From: Zoogloea sp. | GTDB lineage: Bacteria > Pseudomonadota > Gammaproteobacteria > Burkholderiales > Rhodocyclaceae | DNA length: 64,000 bases | Assembly: GCF_030157465.1 (NCBI RefSeq) | Contig: NZ_JAOAUU010000058.1 | Coordinates: forward strand, 1-64,000 | Direction of reading: 5' to 3' | Part shown: piece by piece, positions 1-10,118 of the stretch | Layout of the letters: each line of letters starts with the position of its first letter | Position numbering within the stretch: position 1 is the stretch's first letter | Translations under genes and position numbers: made by a program | Notes under the pieces: generated by a model | What the model saw: only the letters and a program-made list of their open reading frames with translations | Told to the model about the DNA's origin: nothing | Databases searched by the model: none

Positions 1-926
1 GCGTCGCGCATTTCCTTCAGCCCGAGGGCGCCGTCGTCGCCCATGCCGGTCATGACGATGCCCAGCGCGTTGCTGCCGGCCATGCGGGCCACCGAGCGGA
101 ACAGCACATCCACCGAAGGCTTGTGACGGTTGATCAGCGGGCCATCGACCACGCCCACGAAATAGCCCCGGCCATCGCGGGCCAGCTGCAGGTGGCGCCC
201 GCCCGGCGCGATCAGGGCCAGGCCGGGCTCGACCCGGTCGCCGTGCTGCGCCTCGCGCACGCGGATGCTGGCAAGGCCGTCGAGGCGGCGGGCAAACATG
301 TCGGTAAAGCCGGCCGGCATGTGCTGCACCACCACGATGCCCGGCACCTCCGCAGGCAGCATCGTGAGCACGGCCTCCAGGGCCTGGGTGCCACCGGTGG
401 AGGTGCCGATGGCCACCACCCGGGTGCGGTCGCCCGCCGCGGGCACGTTCGGCCCGCGCGGCAGGCTGTCGAGGGTGATCTTGGGACGCGGCGCCGCCGC
501 CTGCTGCCGGGGGCGCAGACGGGCGCCGGCAGCGGCCCGGACGGCAGCGACCAGGTTGTCGCTTTCATCCTGCAGAAACTGTTTGACGCCCACCTTGGGC
601 TTGCTCACCAGGCTCACCGCCCCGGCCGCCAGCGCATCGAAGCTGGCCCGGGCGCCCCGCCCCACCAGCGACGAGCAGATCACCACCGGCGTCGGCCGCT
701 CGGCCATCAGCTTGCGCAGGAAGGTCAGCCCGTCCATGCGCGGCATCTCGATGTCGAGGACGATCACGTCCGGCCACTCCTTGCGCATCTTTTCGATGGC
801 AAAGAGCGGGTCGGCGGCAGTGGCCAGCACCCGCATGTCGGGCTGGGCGGCAATGGCCTCGCTGGCCACCTGGCGCACGATGGCCGAGTCGTCGACGATC
901 ATCACGCGGATCGGCGCGGACGCCAT
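1..926 (-). CDS. cheB: CheB chemotaxis protein-glutamate methylesterase (3' end outside window)
   Basis: Reading from the ATG at 926-924 the frame stays open to the window edge, giving 308 residues of a protein that is usually about 350. It begins with a receiver domain ([15 protein letters not shown], phosphoacceptor in [13 protein letters not shown]), followed by a linker and a methylesterase domain. The catalytic elements are visible: Ser in GTSTGGTQ, His in [10 protein letters not shown], and Asp in [10 protein letters not shown]. It removes methyl groups from, or deamidates, receptor glutamates/glutamines when phosphorylated by CheA. The start overlaps the stop of the upstream cheD by one base (TGATG), indicating translational coupling at the distal end of the chemosensory operon. 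Confidence 0.95.
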
Positions 927-1429
927 CAGGCCGCGGTGCCCAGGGGCCGATGGGCCAGCCACACATGGCCGGTCCACAGATCGAAGATCAGCTTGCGATG
1001 GCCCTTGCCGCCGCAGTGGGCGAGGGCCGCCGGCCGGTAGCCGTGGCGGGCCAGCAAGGCATAAGCCGATTCGACGTTGCGGGCGGCAATGTCCATCACT
1101 TCGGAACTGTCGTCCGGGCGGGTCAGCATGTTGCCGCCGCCGAAGACCTTGACCTGGTAGTCGGCCGGACGACTGGCCAGCCTCGCCACCTCCCGGTCGA
1201 ACAGTTCAAGGGCCTCGTCGGCGTAGCGTCCGTCGGGCGCGGCACCGGCAACCCGGCCGCGGGAGGGCAGCATGAAGTGGCACATCCCGCCGACGAGCCG
1301 GGCCGGATGCCACAGGGTGATGGAAATGCACGAGCCGAGCAGCGTCGAGATCCGCGTGCGACCGCCGCCGAAATGGAAACCGCCGGGCTGCAGGAAGACT
1401 TCGCGGATGTCGTCGCCAAACTCGATCAT
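926..1429 (-). CDS. cheD: CheD receptor glutamine deamidase (second copy in operon)
   Basis: This 167-residue protein belongs to the CheD family, which deamidates receptor glutamines and in many bacteria partners with CheC. The catalytic Cys is in [13 protein letters not shown] and the His in CHFMLPSRG; further family elements are VKVFGGGNM and [17 protein letters not shown]. Its start overlaps the cheR stop by four bases and its stop overlaps the cheB start. A second, diverged CheD lies upstream in the same operon (2276-2866), so the two may serve different receptors; no cheC is visible in the window. Confidence 0.93.
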
Positions 1430-2268
1430 GGCTTGCGATAGATGGTCGCCCGCACCGGCTCCAGGCCTTGCTGGATGCCGTTGAGGGTTTCCGAGTGGCC
1501 GATGATCAGGTGCCCGCCCGACTTGAGCCGCGGCAGCAGGTGGCCGATCACCTTGCGCTTGGTTTCGGTGTCGAAATAAATCATCACGTTGCGCAGGAAG
1601 ATGACCTCGAACTCACCCAGGCTCGTATCCACCGGCAGGGTCAGGTTAACCTGGTGGAAGCGCGTCCGGCGCTTGAGTTCCGGTGTGATGAGGAAAGTGC
1701 CGCTGTGGGAGCGCACACCCTTGAGGCAATACTTGCTCAGGTAGGCCGGCGGAATGCCCTCGTGGCGGCCGAGGGGATAATGGCCGGCCTCGGCCTTGGC
1801 CAGTACCTGGGTGCTGATGTCCGAGCCGACCACCTCCCAGGGCGAATTGGACAGGGTGTCGTCGAGCAGCATGGCGAGGGTGTAGACCTCCTCGCCGCTG
1901 GAGCAGGCCGCGCTCCACACCCGGAAGGGCGCCGAGCTGCGCCGCGGTTTGAGGATTTCGTCGCGCAGAAAATGAAAGTGGCCCGGCTCGCGGAAAAAAT
2001 AGGTTTCGTTGGTGGTGAGCAGATCCACCATCACCTGCATTTCCTCGGGGTGGTGCCCCCCCGCCAGCATCCGGTAATACTGGGAAAAGGTGCCGAAGTT
2101 GTAATGCTTGAGCCGCTTGGCCAGGCGCCCGACGAGCAGCACCTTCTTGGCATCGGAGAGGCTGATGCCGGCAATCTTGTAGATCAGGCGCTGGAAGAGG
2201 GCGAACTCCTGGTCGGTGATCGCGGAGTCCATTGAGCTTCCGGTGGCGGCACTGGCCCGGTGGTTCAT
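1426..2268 (-). CDS. cheR: CheR chemotaxis protein-glutamate O-methyltransferase
   Basis: The 280-residue protein methylates receptor glutamates using SAM. It has the N-terminal CheR helical domain (about residues 15-75, ITDQEFALFQRLIYKIAGI) and a SAM-binding methyltransferase domain with VWSAACSSGEEVYTLAM and the conserved RNVMIYFD. Conserved TNETYFFRE precedes the SAM fold. It sits between the two cheD genes. The upstream receptor (3489-5951) ends in DFEKF, which fits the aromatic-x-x-aromatic pattern of CheR-docking C-terminal pentapeptides, so tethered methylation is plausible. An alternative start at the internal Met13 (MDSAITDQ) is possible. Confidence 0.95.
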   Translation of the reverse strand: MNHRASAATGSSMDSAITDQEFALFQRLIYKIAGISLSDAKKVLLVGRLAKRLKHYNFGTFSQYYRMLAGGHHPEEMQVMVDLLTTNETYFFREPGHFHFLRDEILKPRRSSAPFRVWSAACSSGEEVYTLAMLLDDTLSNSPWEVVGSDISTQVLAKAEAGHYPLGRHEGIPPAYLSKYCLKGVRSHSGTFLITPELKRRTRFHQVNLTLPVDTSLGEFEVIFLRNVMIYFDTETKRKVIGHLLPRLKSGGHLIIGHSETLNGIQQGLEPVRATIYRKP

Positions 2269-2889: not shown

Positions 2890-3474
2890 TCAGGCCGACG
2901 GCACGCCTCCGGCCGCAAGCTCCACGGCGCCTTCGGTCGCCAGGTGCGACAACGAAGCGATTTCATCCACCGACAGCACCTTGTCCACTTCGAGGAGGAT
3001 GACGAACTTGCCATTCACCTTGCCCATGCCCTTGATGAAGTCGGCCCGGATGCGGGCACCGAAGGACGGCGGCGGCTCGATTTCGGCGGCCGGGATTTCC
3101 AGCACTTCCGACACCGCGTCCACCACCACGCCGATATCCTGGCGCTCGTCGTTCTCGGTGAGTTCGATGATGACGATGCAGGTGCGCCGGGATATCTCGG
3201 AGCGCTTGCCGCCGAAGCGGCTGGCCAGGTCGATCACCGGCACCACCGCGCCGCGCAGGTTGATCACCCCCCGGATGAAGGGCGGCACCATCGGAATCTC
3301 GGTGACGGCGCCGTACTCGATGATCTCTTTGATGTTGAGAATGCCGACGGCGAACATCTCGCCGCCGAGGACAAAGGTGAGGTACTGGGCCGGGCTGGAC
3401 TCGACCGCCACCGGGGCCTTGGCCCCGGCAACGGAAAAGCTGGCCGGCGAAGCGGGCTGCGGGGACATGTTCAT
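2890..3474 (-). CDS. cheW: CheW coupling protein
   Basis: The 194-residue protein is a single CheW domain of about 140 residues (QYLTFVLGGEMFAVGILNIKE, then IRGVINLRGAVVPVIDLASR and FIKGMGKVNGKFVILLEVDK), preceded by a 28-residue Ala/Pro/Ser-rich leader and followed by a short tail. CheW links receptors to the P5 domain of CheA. The gene sits directly downstream of the poly-HAMP receptor gene (14 bases). ATG choice is between Met1 and Met3; both give the same domain. Confidence 0.95.
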   Translation of the reverse strand: MNMSPQPASPASFSVAGAKAPVAVESSPAQYLTFVLGGEMFAVGILNIKEIIEYGAVTEIPMVPPFIRGVINLRGAVVPVIDLASRFGGKRSEISRRTCIVIIELTENDERQDIGVVVDAVSEVLEIPAAEIEPPPSFGARIRADFIKGMGKVNGKFVILLEVDKVLSVDEIASLSHLATEGAVELAAGGVPSA

Positions 3475-3488
3475 GCTCCTTTCGCCGC

Positions 3489-5951
3489 TCAGAACTTCTC
3501 GAAGTCATTCTCGTTGAACGCGAAGCCCGCCACCCGCGCCCCCGCCTGCGGCCGGCTAGCAGCAGTGCTGCGCATGGCCGCCACCGGGGCGGCACGCATC
3601 ATGCCGCGCCCCATGTTGCGCTCGTCGATGGTGAAGAACTGCATCAACTGCTGAAGCTGTTCGGCCTGGCCGCCCAGTTCTTCGGCGGTCGCGGCCAGCT
3701 CTTCGGAAGCCGAGGCGTTTTGCTGGGTGGCCTGGTTGAGCTGGTTCATGGCGTTGTTGATCTGGGCCACGCCGGACGACTGCTCCTGGGATGCCGAGGC
3801 AATTTCCTGAACCAGGTCGGAGGTTTTGCGGATTGACGGGACGATCTCGTCGAGCAGGTGACCGGCACGTTCGGCAAGCCCCACCGAATCCCCGGCCAGC
3901 CCGCCGATTTCCTGGGCTGCCACCTGCGAGCGTTCGGCCAGCTTGCGCACTTCGGCCGCCACCACCGCGAAGCCCTTGCCGTGCTCGCCGGCACGGGCAG
4001 CCTCGATGGCCGCGTTAAGCGCGAGCAGGTTGGTCTGGTAGGCGATGTCGTCGATGATTCCGATCTTCTGGGCGATCTTCTTCATCGCATCCACGGTGTT
4101 CTTCACCGCACCGCCGCCTTCGGTGGCTTCCACCGCGGTCTTGGAGGCGAGGTTGTCGGTCACCTTGGCGTTCTCGGCGTTCTGGTTGATGGAGGCCGAC
4201 ATCTGTTCGACCGAAGCCGACGACTCTTCCACGCTGGCCGCCTGTTCCGACGAAGACTGGGACAGGGACTGGGCGGTGGCCGAAACCTGGCCGGAGGCGT
4301 TGGTCAGCGCATCGGCGGCGGTACGCACCTGGGTGATGGTGTCGGAGAGCTTGCCGACGGTGTTGTTCACCGCTTCCTTCAGGGCCTTGAAATCACCCTG
4401 GTAATCCTGCGTGATGTTCTGGGTCAGATCGCCCTGCTCGATGGCGGTCATGATCCGGCGCACTTCGTTGATCGGGCCGACGATGGCGTCCAGCGTGCCA
4501 TTGACACCATCCACGATCTTGCGGAAATCGCCCTGGTGCTGGCTGCCGTCGGCACGGGTTTCGAGCCGGCCGGCAATGGCCGCGGCGGACAGAAGGTTCG
4601 CGTCGGCCACCAGCTTGTTCACCGCTTCGATACAGGTGTTGAGGTTGTTCTTGATGGTGTTGAAGTCACCGTTGTAGGTGTCGGTGATCTTGGCCGGAAT
4701 ATCGCCCTTGGAGATGCGGTCGACGTAGTTGGCGGCCACGTTGAGCGGGCCGATCACCGAGTCGAGGGTGGCATTGACGCCTTCGACCACCTTGCGGAAA
4801 TCACCCTGGTGCTGGGTCGCATCGGCGCGGGTGGCGAGACGCCCATCCACAGCCGCCTTCGACAGCACCACGGCATCGGCCACCAGCTTGTTCACTGCGT
4901 CGATACAGGTGTTGAGGTTGTTCTTGATGGTGTTGAAGTCACCGTTGTAGATGTCGGTGATCTTGGCCGGAATGTCGCCCTTGGAGATGCGGTCGACGTA
5001 GTTGGCGGCCACGTTGAGCGGACCGATCACGGAGTCGAGGGTTTCATTGACGCCTTCGACAATATTGCGGAAATCGCCCTGGTGCTTGCTGGCATCGGCG
5101 CGAGTAGCCAGACGGCCGTCGATCGCCGCGCTGGCCAGCAGCGTCGTGTCGGCGGACATGGCCTGGACGGCATGCTGGATCGCCTCAACGGCCTGCACCA
5201 GCTGTCCGACCTCGTCCTTGGCTTCGCTCTTGAGGGTGAAGTCGAAGTCGCCGACCGCCATCTTCTTGGCGGCGCCGACAACCTCGTTGATCGGGCGGGT
5301 GATGCTGCGGGTCAGCCACAGGGCAAACAGGGCCGCCAGCACGAAGGCCACCGAGGCCAGGGTGATGACCAGGGTTCTGGACGAGCTGGCCAGCTCGACC
5401 GCGTGGGTTCCGGCCTTGCGCGCGCCGTCGATCTGGAAGGCCGCGAACTCGTTGAGCGCCGTCACATACACGCCGGCTGCCTCGGTGTACTCACCGAACA
5501 GCAGCTGGGTGGCCTTGTCCTGGTTGTACTGGGGCGACGAGGTATCGGCGAGGCTCAGCAGCCTGTCGGTCACCACGTCGTACTTGGTGCGCGCATCGGT
5601 GGCCTTGGCGAGCAGGGCCTTGCCCTTTTCGGTCAGGATCAGCGGCGTCATCTTTTCGTAGATCTCGGTGTTGCGGCTGCGGGCCTTGGCGATCGCTTCG
5701 GCTTGCTGCTTCTCGACCGTCTTGTCACTGGCCATGATCATGTTGCGCACGCCACGGCCAACCAGCTGGACGTTCAGGGAAAGCTCGTCGGCCATGATGA
5801 TCTTGGGGATCCGACCCTCCGCCAGTTCGTCGATCCCGGCGTTGAGTTCGTTGATGCGGGTGATCGACAGGATCGAGATCGCGGCCAGCATCAGCAGCAC
5901 GAAGGCGAAGCCTAGCCCCAGGCGCACACCGATCTTTAGATTGTTGAACAT
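3489..5951 (-). CDS. Methyl-accepting chemotaxis protein with tandem HAMP-like repeats
   Basis: An 820-residue transmembrane receptor. TM1 is at residues 8-30, a periplasmic helical sensor at 31-192, TM2 at 193-215 and HAMP at 215-268. A run of about 91-residue HAMP-type repeats then starts at 292, 383 and 474 ([20 protein letters not shown] and close copies). The signalling domain spans about 545-775, with the hairpin tip [20 protein letters not shown]. The C-terminus, DFEKF, fits the CheR/CheB docking pentapeptide pattern (x-aromatic-x-x-aromatic). It lies between cheA and cheW in the operon, so it probably feeds this CheA. The ligand cannot be inferred. Confidence 0.95.
4533..5078 (-). repeat. 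Two tandem 273-bp coding repeats in the receptor gene
   Basis: The HAMP-like units of the receptor are repeated almost exactly at the DNA level with a period of 273 bp (91 codons). Copy one covers 5078-4806 and copy two 4805-4533. A more diverged third copy begins at 4532. Both near-identical copies encode [20 protein letters not shown] and [15 protein letters not shown]. The conservation between copies suggests recent duplication or gene conversion, and the array could expand or contract by recombination. Confidence 0.85.
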
Positions 5952-5979: not shown

Positions 5980-8148
5980 TCAGGCGTTACGTAATTCAGG
6001 ACGTGCGATCAGGCGCTGCTCGAGCTGACCCGAAATCTTGATGAGTGCGGAAATATCCAGGATCAGGGCCACTTCGCCGCTGCCAAGAATGGTTGAGCCA
6101 CCGATGCCCTGCAGGTGGCGGAAGATCACCCCGAGGGGCTTGATCACCGCCTGCAGTTCGCCGGCCAGCCGGTCCACGACAATGCCGGCACGCAGCCCGG
6201 CGTACTGCACGACAACCACGCTTTCGCGGGCCGGACGTTCGCCCGGCAGGTTGAAAATTTCGCGCAGGCATACGGCCGGCAGAACCTGGCCGCGCAGGTT
6301 GAAGTAATTGCGCTCGTGCTCGGATTCGGGCCGCTCGATGCACTCCACCACGGCATCGAGGGGAATCACGTAGGAGCGGTTGCCCGACACGACCAGAAAG
6401 CCGTCGATGATCGCCAGCGTAAGCGGCAGGCGCAGGGTCAGGCGGGTGCCCTGGCCGGACTGGCTATCCACGTTGATGGTGCCGCGCAGGGCCTGCAGGT
6501 TGCGTCGCACCACGTCCATGCCTACGCCGCGGCCCGAGAGGTTGGTCACCTGATCGGCGGTGGACAGGCCGGGGGCGAAGATCAGGTCGAACACTTCCCG
6601 GTCGGAAAGATGAGCCTCGGCATCCACCAGGCCGCGCTCGACGGCCTTGGCCAGAATCTTGTTGCGGTTGAGGCCGGCGCCGTCGTCGCTCACTTCGATG
6701 ACGATGTTGCCGGCGTCGTGGAAGGCATTGAGAAAGAGCGTGCCCTGCGGATCCTTGCCGGCGGCCTCGCGCACGGCCGGGGCTTCGATGCCGTGGTCGA
6801 GGGAGTTGCGCACCAGGTGCATCAGCGGGTCGCCGATCTTCTCGACAATGGACTTGTCGAGTTCGGTCTCGCCGCCGTTGATCACGAGCTGCACATCCTT
6901 GCCCAGATCCTTGCAGGCATCGCGCACCAGGCGGTGGAATCGGTTGAAGGTTTCGCCGATCTGCACCGTGCGCAGCTGCAGCGAGGCATCGCGGATTTCC
7001 TCCACCAGCCGGGTCAGCAGGGACGACGCTTCGATCAGTTCGCCGTCGCGGCGGGTGTGGGCGAGCAGGCTGGTGGCCGCACCGGCAATCACCAGCTCGC
7101 CGACCAGGTTGATGAGGTGGTCGAGCTTGTCGGCCGGCACCCGGATCAGTTTGGCGTCCTGGGCCTTTTTCTCGCTGACCTGGGCCTGCTTGGCCACCGC
7201 GGCCACGACCAGCTCCGGCTGGACGACCTGCTGGGCGACCAGGATTTCGCCGATCTGCCTGGCCTCCGGCTCCGGTTCATCGACGGGCGCCGATTGGGCC
7301 CGCAGCCCTTCGGCCAGTTCATCGGCGGTCAGCGCGCCCACCTGCACCAGAATTTCGCCGAGCCTCAGGGTGTCCTCGGGCAAATTCCGGATCAGGTCGA
7401 GGTAATCCGCGACCTTGCTGTTGGGGGGCAGGATGGACAGCTGGCATTCGTCGCGAACGAAGGCAAAGATGTCTTCGATGGCCTGCTTGTCGGCGCTGGA
7501 TTCGAGGGTGATTTCAAAACCCAGGTAGCACACTTCCGGGTCCATCTCGGCCGCCGCCGGCATGGCGTCGGCCAGCGTTTCCAGGTGCCGGATATCGCCC
7601 AGGGTTTCCAGGAAACGCAAAAAGTTTTCCGGGTCCATGCCCTGGCGCAGCACTTCAGGCCCGAAGCGCACCGAAATGTGCCAGCAGTTCTGGGCCGAAC
7701 CGCTTGAGGGAATCCGCTCGACACCGGATTCGACGGTCTTGGGGCTGGCGGAAACCTGCCCGCCCGGGCCGTATTCGCCCAGCTGCTTGAGCAGGCGGGC
7801 GCCCTGCGCCTCGATCTCTTCGCCCGCCATCTGCGCCACCCCGGCTTCGTTGGCAACCAGCACCCGGAGGTGGTCGGTGCATCCGAGCATCAGGGCCGCC
7901 AGCTTGGTGCTGACCGCGATTTCGTGGTTGCGCAGGCGGTCAAGCACGTTCTCGACCACGTGGGCAAAGGATTCGACGGCCGCGCACTCGACCATTCCCG
8001 CCGCGCCCTTGATGGTATGTGCGGCGCGGAAGATGCCGTTGAGCGTGGTTTCGTCGTCGGGCCGGTTTTCCAGCTCGAGGAGCAGGGACTCGAGGGCATC
8101 GAGCTGCTCGAAGCTCTCCTGCAAGAAAACTTGTTTCAGTTCGTCCAT
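5980..8148 (-). CDS. cheA: CheA sensor kinase with MshEN-like motifs in the linker
   Basis: A 722-residue kinase. The P1/HPt domain (1-125) has phosphoacceptor His44 in [11 protein letters not shown]. Residues 153-243 form an unusual P2-position domain. P3 dimerisation is at about 325-395, the P4 ATPase at 395-575 ([28 protein letters not shown]) and P5/CheW-like at 585-710. Between P2 and P3, residues 262-285 match the 24-residue MshEN pattern (RLGxxLVxxGxL...Q). A degenerate second copy occupies 298-321. MshEN domains are known c-di-GMP receptors in type II/IV secretion ATPases. The gene lies between a STAS gene and the receptor gene. Confidence 0.93.
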
Positions 8149-8164
8149 GATGGATTTGCCGGAG

Positions 8165-8458
8165 CTATGCCGCGGGCACGACGAGGGGATCGCCGAACCA
8201 GGCTGCCAGGTTGTAGAACTCGATCAGGGATTGCACGGCCCGGCTGTGGGCGACGATCGCCAGCGTCTTGCCGGCAGCACCGGCCTCGCGCTTGGCGAAG
8301 ATCAGCAACTGGCAGCCGGCCGAATCCATGTGCTCGACACCGGACAGGTCCAGCTCGATGTGCTCGCCCTCCTGAATCACGGCGAGCAGGACCGGCTTGA
8401 GTTCGGCCACCCGGTAAATCGTGAAATCCTCGGTAAAAGCCCGGCGGATCGCGCTCAT
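8165..8458 (-). CDS. STAS-domain protein (anti-anti-sigma-factor-like)
   Basis: A 97-residue single STAS domain: beta-strand FTIYRVAELKPVLLAVIQ, then IELDLSGVEHMDSAGCQLLIF, which holds the Ser in the position phosphorylated in SpoIIAA-type proteins (MDSAG), and a C-terminal IEFYNLAAWFG. In such proteins phosphorylation at this Ser by a GHKL kinase switches partner binding. It sits 16 bases upstream of cheA, in the operon, and no anti-sigma kinase is encoded nearby, so CheA itself or a receptor may be the partner. That is inference. Confidence 0.88.
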   Translation of the reverse strand: MSAIRRAFTEDFTIYRVAELKPVLLAVIQEGEHIELDLSGVEHMDSAGCQLLIFAKREAGAAGKTLAIVAHSRAVQSLIEFYNLAAWFGDPLVVPAA

Positions 8459-8474: not shown

Positions 8475-9749
8475 TCAGAACAGTTCGACGGCCGGGCCGG
8501 CGCCCGAAGCCGCCGGGGCGCGATCGCCGCTGTAGCGTACGTGCTCGTCGCGCTGGCTCTGCATCACGTAACTTTCAAACAGGCGGTCGATCTGCTCGGT
8601 CATGGCCGGAACATCGGCCACCGCGGCCTTGTCGGTCAGGCAGTCGGCGAGCTTGAGTACGTGTTCGTCGAGGCGTTGCAGCGCCTCGATGACATGGCCG
8701 ACCTGCTGGCGGGTCACGTCCTGGAACTGCACGCTGGCCATGGTTTCCATGAACATCTCGGCGAGCGTGGCGCTGGATTCCCGAAACGCCGCGAGAATCC
8801 GGCTCTCGTGCTCGATGAGCCGGGTATAGCTCTGGCTCACTTCGTCGAATTCGTCGGCCACGGTACGCAGGGCCTGGTCTTCCGCGTCGCTGCTCGACTG
8901 GTCGAGCTGTTCGCGGAACTGGGCTTCGATGGTGCTCACCACCCGACCGATGCCTTCGCTTATCTTCAGCACGGCCTGGTCGGTCTGCCCGGCCAGCTTG
9001 CGGACTTCGTCGGCCACCACCGCAAAACCGCGTCCGGCTTCACCGGCCCTGGCGGCCTCAATGGCGGCGTTGAGGGCCAGCAGATTGGTCTGGCTGGAAA
9101 TGTCGTGCACCAGCTTGACGAACTGGCCCAGCGACTTGGCCTCGTTCAGGGCCGACATCACGTGCTGCCGGTCTTCGCCCAGGTTTTCGAGGCGGCGATG
9201 AATGTAGCCCTGCAAGGCCACCAGCGTTTGCTGGTTGCGAACGGCGCGGGCACTGGCCGCATCGACGATCTCGCCGGATTCCTGCGAAAAAGTCTGGACA
9301 CAGCGGTCAAGCCCCTGCACCACGGAATCGACGGCCTGCAGGCGCTCCACCATGCTGAAGGCCGCGCTTTCGGTCTGGGTGGTAACGGCGCTGAGCTGGC
9401 CGACGAGAATGTTGTTGAGGTGCGGCACCTGGGCCAGGGAGTGGCTCACTTCGGTGGCCACATCCAGCCGCCTGGCGGTCTCGTCACGCGCATGCTGCAA
9501 GGCGTTTTCGGCGCCGTAAGAGGGGTCGCGGTAGCGGGCGACGGACAGCATCTGCTGGGCCAGGAAGCTCACCAGCACCGCTGCCGCCGCACCCAGCGCA
9601 TCGACCAGCGCCTGACTCAGCCCCACCTTGTCGAGCAACAGCTCGTGATAGGTCGCATTGGCGAAATAAACGACGACAAAGGCGCCCACGGCCGTCACAC
9701 AGGCCAGCAACAGCCGGCGCCGCCGTGATTTATCCCGGATGGCCGTCAT
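8475..9749 (-). CDS. Membrane receptor-like signalling protein with CheZ-type motif
   Basis: A 424-residue protein with two predicted membrane helices (13-31 and 45-70), almost no periplasmic domain and no HAMP. A receptor signalling hairpin follows ([19 protein letters not shown] at about 218-236, then [13 protein letters not shown]). Downstream, residues 333-360 contain QFQDVTRQQ, with Asp344 and Gln348 spaced as in the CheZ active site (FQDLTGQ). The C-terminus is VELF, shared with CheD at 2276-2866. It lies three bases from cheY. It may be a receptor, a CheY-P phosphatase, or both. It would normally be annotated simply as a methyl-accepting protein. Confidence 0.85.
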
Positions 9750-9752
9750 GAC

Positions 9753-10118
9753 TCAACGCACCACAAGCTTGATCGTGCTGAGCAGGGTTTCCGCAGTCGC
9801 GGGCTTGACGATCCAGCCGGAAGCACCGGCGGCCTTCGCCTCGGCACGCTTGCTCTGCTGCGATTCGGTGGTGAGAAACAGGATGGGCATGAAACGCAGT
9901 TCGGCCCGCTGCCTGACCACCTTGATGAACTCGATACCGTTCATGCCCGGCATGTTCAGATCGGTGATGAGCAGGTCGGGCTTGGTGCCGGCAGCAAGTT
10001 TCCGCTGCCCGTCTTCGGCACTGTTGGCGGTCACCACGTTGAAACCGGCCTTGGCCAGGATGCCCGAGATGGAAAGCAGAACAGTGGCGGAATCATCCAC
10101 CAGCATGATGGTTTTCAA
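9753..10118 (-). CDS. cheY: CheY-type single-domain response regulator
   Basis: A 121-residue stand-alone receiver domain with acidic pair DD8-9 (MLVDDSAT), phosphoacceptor Asp53 (LLITDLNMPGMNG), conserved Thr84 (LFLTTES) and Lys in VKPAT. It is the first gene of the ten-gene minus-strand chemosensory operon; the next gene begins three bases after its stop. It is probably the output of the CheA encoded downstream. There are no flagellar genes in the window, so motor control cannot be distinguished from pilus or second-messenger output. Confidence 0.95.
   Translation of the reverse strand: MKTIMLVDDSATVLLSISGILAKAGFNVVTANSAEDGQRKLAAGTKPDLLITDLNMPGMNGIEFIKVVRQRAELRFMPILFLTTESQQSKRAEAKAAGASGWIVKPATAETLLSTIKLVVR

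Follow-up and report, generated by a model that had tools for sequence, protein, structure and literature searches.

A receptor-like protein encoded beside cheY in Zoogloea sp. carries a CheZ-like C-terminal module and is a candidate array-resident CheY-P phosphatase

Chemoreceptors and CheZ both dimerise into four-helix bundles built of hairpins, so that the receptor bundle could itself carry a CheZ-like site. A chemotaxis operon of Zoogloea sp. raises the question of whether such an arrangement exists. The operon lies in a stretch of 64,000 nucleotides from contig NZ_JAOAUU010000058.1 (hereafter the window, meaning the whole stretch of DNA that was analysed), and one of its genes, adjacent to cheY, encodes a receptor-like protein that we termed P0001. 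A first-pass annotation, made from the letters of the sequence alone, had noticed a receptor-type signalling hairpin followed by an FQD-x3-Q motif in this protein, and had suggested that the receptor could act as a phosphatase of CheY-P.

The receptor P0001 and its operon

Both parts of that description were recovered in P0001 (Table 1). The reading frame is open, Pfam MCPsignal (PF00015) matches with 97.1 bits compared with a cut-off of 34.6 and includes the conserved tip, and the heptapeptide FQDVTRQ follows the hairpin. No sensor domain was found in P0001 above the Pfam cut-off, and the protein has no methylation consensus site, whereas the operon's other receptor has three. Throughout the family of receptors that carry the FQD motif, which is described below, a methylation consensus is present in 7 of 93 members, compared with 15 of 27 other receptors. 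A sequence search of the PDB with P0001 returned chemoreceptors only, and the C-terminal part alone yielded nothing relevant.

The operon is located on the minus strand and contains, in this order, cheY, the P0001 receptor gene, a STAS-domain gene, cheA, the second receptor gene, cheW, cheD, cheR, another cheD and cheB. The P0001 gene had been placed three bases from cheY, and this is correct: cheY ends at 9753 and the P0001 gene starts three bases on. The apparent absence of CheZ, CheC and CheX was likewise confirmed for the nine operon proteins compared with Pfam, none of which reaches the respective cut-offs. The second receptor (3489-5951, minus strand) contains several HAMP_2 domains in series, and its FEKF end is a likely CheR tether. 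The presence of two cheD copies in one operon, with a VELF-type tail on one of them only, was also recorded.

Table 1. Positions of the operon genes and of the parts of P0001 within the window
Feature	Position	Strand	Basis or remark
cheB, runs off the window	1..926	-	named by look of translation (receiver, then esterase motifs)
cheD, second copy, without VELF-type tail	926..1429	-	Pfam
cheR	1426..2268	-	Pfam
cheD, first copy; C-terminal ...NNVELF, same tail as P0001	2276..2866	-	Pfam
cheW	2890..3474	-	Pfam
Second receptor, with a four-helix sensor, several successive HAMP domains, three sites of the methylation consensus and an FEKF end	3489..5951	-	
cheA	5980..8148	-	Pfam
STAS-domain protein	8165..8458	-	Pfam
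Chemoreceptor with CheZ-like C-terminal module (P0001, 424 aa)	8475..9749	-	open ORF, Pfam
C-terminal peptide VELF, proposed CheY-docking tail	8478..8489	-	family tails and CheZ tails
CheZ-like region, residues 278-400	8550..8918	-	sub-cut-off Pfam CheZ match and gapless CheZ alignment
FQDVTRQ, residues 342-348; Asp344 and Gln348 are counterparts of the CheZ catalytic pair	8706..8726	-	
MCP signalling hairpin, residues 200-331, canonical tip	8757..9152	-	Pfam MCPsignal
Hydrophobic segment 2, residues 42-71, probable membrane helix	9537..9626	-	Kyte-Doolittle, window 19
Hydrophobic segment 1, residues 11-33, probable membrane helix	9651..9719	-	Kyte-Doolittle, window 19
cheY, proposed substrate	9753..10118	-	Pfam Response_reg E 3.8e-24

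Elsewhere in the same genome, a canonical cheZ is present on contig C43 (266.6 bits, Pfam). In the cluster on that contig, another FQD receptor is encoded next to a cheY and a cheA of its own, and a set of cheY, cheZ and cheA follows at a greater distance. This arrangement rules out the simple account in which P0001 replaces a missing CheZ in this genome. Because a true cheZ exists on C43, the FQD module would be an addition to CheZ here and not a replacement. In addition, a 224-residue frame on contig C145 lies just at the CheX cut-off (27.0 bits) and above that of CheC (25.2 versus 22). On the window's own contig, a 637-residue frame (L214, G000:C55:187137-187367) weakly matches the FQD profile with an E-value of 8.5e-5 and is not among the PF00015 matches listed.

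Conservation of the motif and its likeness to CheZ

Because 82 of 20,000 shuffled versions of the last 184 residues of P0001 contained FQD-x3-Q, the motif by itself is only slightly out of the ordinary, and the real evidence is the family. The initial proposal had been made to depend on Asp344 and Gln348 being conserved in close homologues, and they are: the equivalents of both residues are kept in 12 of 12 same-genus orthologues (69-99% identity) and in all five relatives read of the eight listed at 37-44% identity. One close orthologue, L003 (and L013, perhaps from the same genome), contains an 11-residue tandem duplication before the motif, which is thereby located at position 122 after the tip.

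A profile of the C-terminal regions of 15 relatives (A2), motif columns included, matched in 160 of 396 Pseudomonadota genomes, and some of these matches are CheZ genes. Both residues are kept in 76 of the 78 frames with a receptor hairpin found with this unmasked profile; of the two exceptions, L135 has the Asp without the Gln, whereas L136 does not belong to the family. A conservation count on sequences chosen by the motif was set aside as circular, and motif-masked counts were used instead. Because A2 contains the motif, its eight motif columns were masked before 232 Gammaproteobacteria genomes were searched, resulting in 50 matches in 37 genomes, including the window and the C43 paralogue. 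All 50 were read, and 44 of them keep [FY]xD-x3-Q together with a Phe end (29 of the 30 loci read first and 15 of the 20 read later; L196 is a truncated frame). The remaining six are two ordinary receptors (L208 and L221), three sequences without a hairpin tip or a motif in place (L227, L231 and L233), and L229, a short protein that contains FADRLKQ and lacks a Phe-type tail. The motif is located 104-111 residues past the hairpin tip in the motif-masked matches wherever the tip could be placed, and the residues at the three intervening positions of Asp-x3-Gln differ among members. Judged by sequence, P0001 belongs to a broad receptor family that is present in many proteobacteria.

The Pfam CheZ family (PF04344) matched residues 278-400 of full-length P0001 with an E-value of 5.6e-4 and 20.3 bits and the C-terminal region alone with 25.0 bits, both below the cut-off of 30.7, and the match begins at position 65 (full length) or 90 (C-terminal region) of the 203 profile positions. 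A CheZ profile made from 30 sequences aligned to P0001 over a gapless stretch of 60 residues, placing Asp on Asp and Gln on Gln, in agreement with the proposed correspondence between the motif and the CheZ active site. The same profile scored 18.1 bits on the C-terminal part of P0001, compared with a maximum of 11.3 bits in 2,000 shuffles. Its median score was 6.6 bits for 78 family receptors (range -4.5 to 26.5) and -2.0 bits for 28 other receptors, one of which reached 10.0 bits.

We also used hhalign to compare CheZ with 46 non-redundant family C-termini, which had been selected for carrying the motif at its expected position (as did 75 of 78), and obtained a match with Prob 73.7, an E-value of 2.9e-5, and a score of 35.9 over 63 gapless columns. 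The controls were much lower, with Prob 1.5 and a score of 20.0 for ordinary receptors, Prob 0.2 and a score of 12.5 for reversed CheZ, and scores of at most 16.9 for 20 column shuffles. Because masking the motif lowered the hhalign match to Prob 0.7 (not significant, with the same register chosen), most of the CheZ signal resides in the motif; the motif-masked sequence gave no CheZ match with the CheZ profile. Hydropathy flanking the motif, with the motif itself excluded, correlates with that of CheZ (r=0.635), none of 56 shifted registers being as good, and in CheZ as in the receptor family Asp and Gln lie off the hydrophobic face. Pfam CheZ matched 9 of 15 family C-termini at an E-value of at most 0.1, compared with two or fewer for every other Pfam family; the family members L155 and L179 had no Pfam CheZ match at this threshold. 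The receptor-only profile in turn matched loci of Pfam CheZ in the same places (G157, G244, G270, G369, G389 and G378).

CheZ is helical at its active-site motif, and its Gln is needed for catalysis. Hydropathy around the P0001 motif agrees with a helix; the AlphaFold models of full-length P0001 and of the C-terminal fragment, which are of low confidence (pLDDT 47 and 60), contain a helix break at the motif. By the Pfam criterion P0001 is not a member of the CheZ family, but it likely works like CheZ.

The concentration of the CheZ similarity within the motif could also be accommodated if P0001 were an ordinary receptor, the C-terminus of which resembles CheZ only through its helical bundle and a shared heptad pattern, and the McpA-like receptor of P. 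aeruginosa is stated to be involved in taxis to trichloroethylene (PMC7534058). We consider this quite unlikely, because the spacing between motif and tip is nearly fixed even in very divergent members, because other receptors, which are helical too, match CheZ much more weakly, because free-standing relatives exist beside cheY (see below), and because P0001 lacks a Pfam sensor domain and a methylation site.

The C-terminal tail and the linkage to cheY

All 93 distinct motif-bearing receptors end in Phe, and 92 of them end in [IVL]x[LFM]F, mostly VELF, ITFF or IELF, compared with none of 27 other receptors. The C-terminal peptide of E. coli CheZ docks CheY, and 29 of the 30 CheZ proteins read end in DDLLxSLGF. 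In a group of shorter proteins with FQDITGQR (L105, L108, L111, L112 and L116), the end is IDALF or IDKLF followed by one or two residues.

A terminal aromatic peptide on a linker might instead represent a variant of the NWETF-type tether for CheR or CheB, in which case the C-terminus would serve adaptation rather than CheY, and other receptors of this genome do end in WEEF or FEKF. Position 2 of the tail, however, is usually occupied by Ile or Val, and Val at this position of the usual tether prevents binding of any of four CheR proteins in P. aeruginosa McpA (PMC7184735). The AVELF end of P0001 does not match x-[HFYW]-x2-[HFYW] and has Val at position 2, as described in that paper. Moreover, the same kind of tail is found on free-standing proteins that are not receptors, which leaves a tether function highly improbable.

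The tail is not restricted to receptors. Four of the seven CheD proteins read carry it, namely the first copy in the window, L160 and L169 (VELF or IELF) and L210 (DVELFG), and each of these four is encoded near an FQD receptor; the second copy in the window, L162 and L165 are without it. The likeness between the tails of CheD and of the FQD receptors suggests a shared binding partner.

With regard to gene linkage, a cheY-like gene in the same orientation lies no more than 150 bp from 69 of 93 FQD receptor genes (duplicates dropped by their last 110 residues; not independent, as Zoogloea orthologues are included) compared with 3 of 50 other receptor-like frames (found by tip pattern and possibly including cut or chance frames), and one of these three is L135, the member that lost the Gln. 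Some of the 24 non-adjacent FQD receptor genes have short flanks. When receptors under 60% identity were considered, 47 of 66 genes were adjacent to cheY, and so were 42 of 48 with at least 600 bp on both sides. In 20 longer neighbourhoods, hand-picked among the matches, 20 of 21 FQD receptors adjoin cheY, the exception being L169. On two plasmids, one from Pseudomonas sp. HR96 and one from Aeromonas sp. BC14, the gene order is receptor, response regulator, STAS protein and CheA, and both plasmid receptors contain FQDRVSQ.

Free-standing proteins that combine Asp-x3-Gln with the tail and have no receptor part were taken from 12 short loci, hand-picked among short frames matched by the unmasked profile (L062 included), and in 7 of these the gene is a neighbour of cheY. 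In the case of L062, the free-standing protein occupies the slot of the receptor before cheY, STAS and cheA. Six frames of approximately 190-230 residues (L099, L100, L103, L104, L106 and L109) contain FQD or FYD-x3-Q and have DDIELF ends. Of these six, L099 matched Pfam CheZ below the cut-off, and the other five had sub-cut-off matches to unrelated Pfam families or none; among 10 free-standing proteins, L099 was the only one with a Pfam CheZ match at an E-value of at most 0.1. It is possible that the free-standing FQD and FYD proteins are uncharacterised relatives of CheZ.

The same motif, tail and linkage to cheY would also suit a docking or sink platform, in which the FQD helix and the tail keep CheY-P close to the array and catalyse little or nothing. 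Because four of the seven CheD proteins read carry the same tail, the tail alone need not mean phosphatase activity. We nevertheless regard such a platform as unlikely, because the Gln is kept in 44 of the 50 motif-masked matches while the three residues that separate it from the Asp vary.

Proposed function and comparison with known systems

In our assessment, the best explanation, and a probable one, is that P0001 acts as an array-resident CheZ-like phosphatase for CheY-P. P0001 would constitute a membrane-anchored receptor shell without a recognisable sensor domain or methylation consensus, and would be expected to join a CheA/CheW array through its canonical hairpin tip. The four-helix bundle of the P0001 dimer would then carry the CheZ-like site (Asp344 and Gln348) approximately 110 residues beyond the tip, where it is predicted to dephosphorylate CheY-P made by the neighbouring CheA, and the VELF peptide on its flexible linker may dock CheY in the manner of the CheZ C-terminal peptide. 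For a CheZ-like module in a receptor beside cheY, this proposal singles out two residues and one tail as testable, and it would imply that the receptor dimer and the CheZ dimer can share one enzymatic design.

The P0001 family probably corresponds to the McpA-like or 24H receptors, to which it was matched by published description. According to PMC7184735, McpA-like receptors are encoded in F7 clusters, form an uncategorised class, are not essential to the F7 array and are instead reported in association with that of F6; the array of the module and its immediate neighbours may therefore not be those of its own operon. The same source describes the C-terminus of McpA-like receptors as conserved and of unclear role, and assigns cheZ to F6 systems only. 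The 24H outliers VCA1088 and VC1394 are described as receptors about which little is known (PMC7534058). We suggest, as a tentative generalisation that we find plausible without calling it probable, that the McpA-like/24H class consists of array-resident CheY-P phosphatases rather than sensors, and that the CheD of their operons also bears the CheY-docking tail. If this is true, F7 systems of stages 1 and 2, which reportedly possess cheY and no cheZ, gain their missing phosphatase, and phosphatase action sits inside a receptor array. No report joining such receptors to CheZ was found in the part of the open-access literature that was searched, to which our claim of novelty is limited.

Compared with P. 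aeruginosa McpA (PA0180) and V. cholerae VCA1088 and VC1394, P0001 shares a membrane region and a signalling domain without a ligand-binding domain, a cluster that contains CheD, and a conserved C-terminus with Val at position 2 and no CheR tether. It differs in that the accessible parts of the two papers leave the function of these receptors open and mention no CheZ motif for them (PMC7184735, PMC7534058).

With respect to other phosphatases, no CheC, CheX or FliY was detected among the operon proteins scanned, and one borderline match was detected elsewhere in the genome. CheC, CheX and FliY dephosphorylate CheY-P, and their fold and motif differ from the CheZ-like module. For Helicobacter, Lertsethtakarn and Ottemann reportedly described in 2010, to go by the title, a remote CheZ orthologue that retains phosphatase function (cited in PMC9321776); that protein is not known to be a receptor.

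The comparison with CheZ itself (PF04344; NCBIfam NF041271 and NF008368) comprises both likenesses and differences. P0001 and CheZ have in common Asp-x3-Gln in register, the hydropathy pattern, the gapless 63-column alignment, a linker with a C-terminal peptide that ends in Phe, and a gene beside cheY. In contrast to CheZ, the module of P0001 is fused to a receptor hairpin and a membrane anchor, the first third of CheZ is unmatched and the scores are below curated cut-offs, and the tail of the P0001 family is VELF or ITFF in place of the DDLLxSLGF of CheZ.
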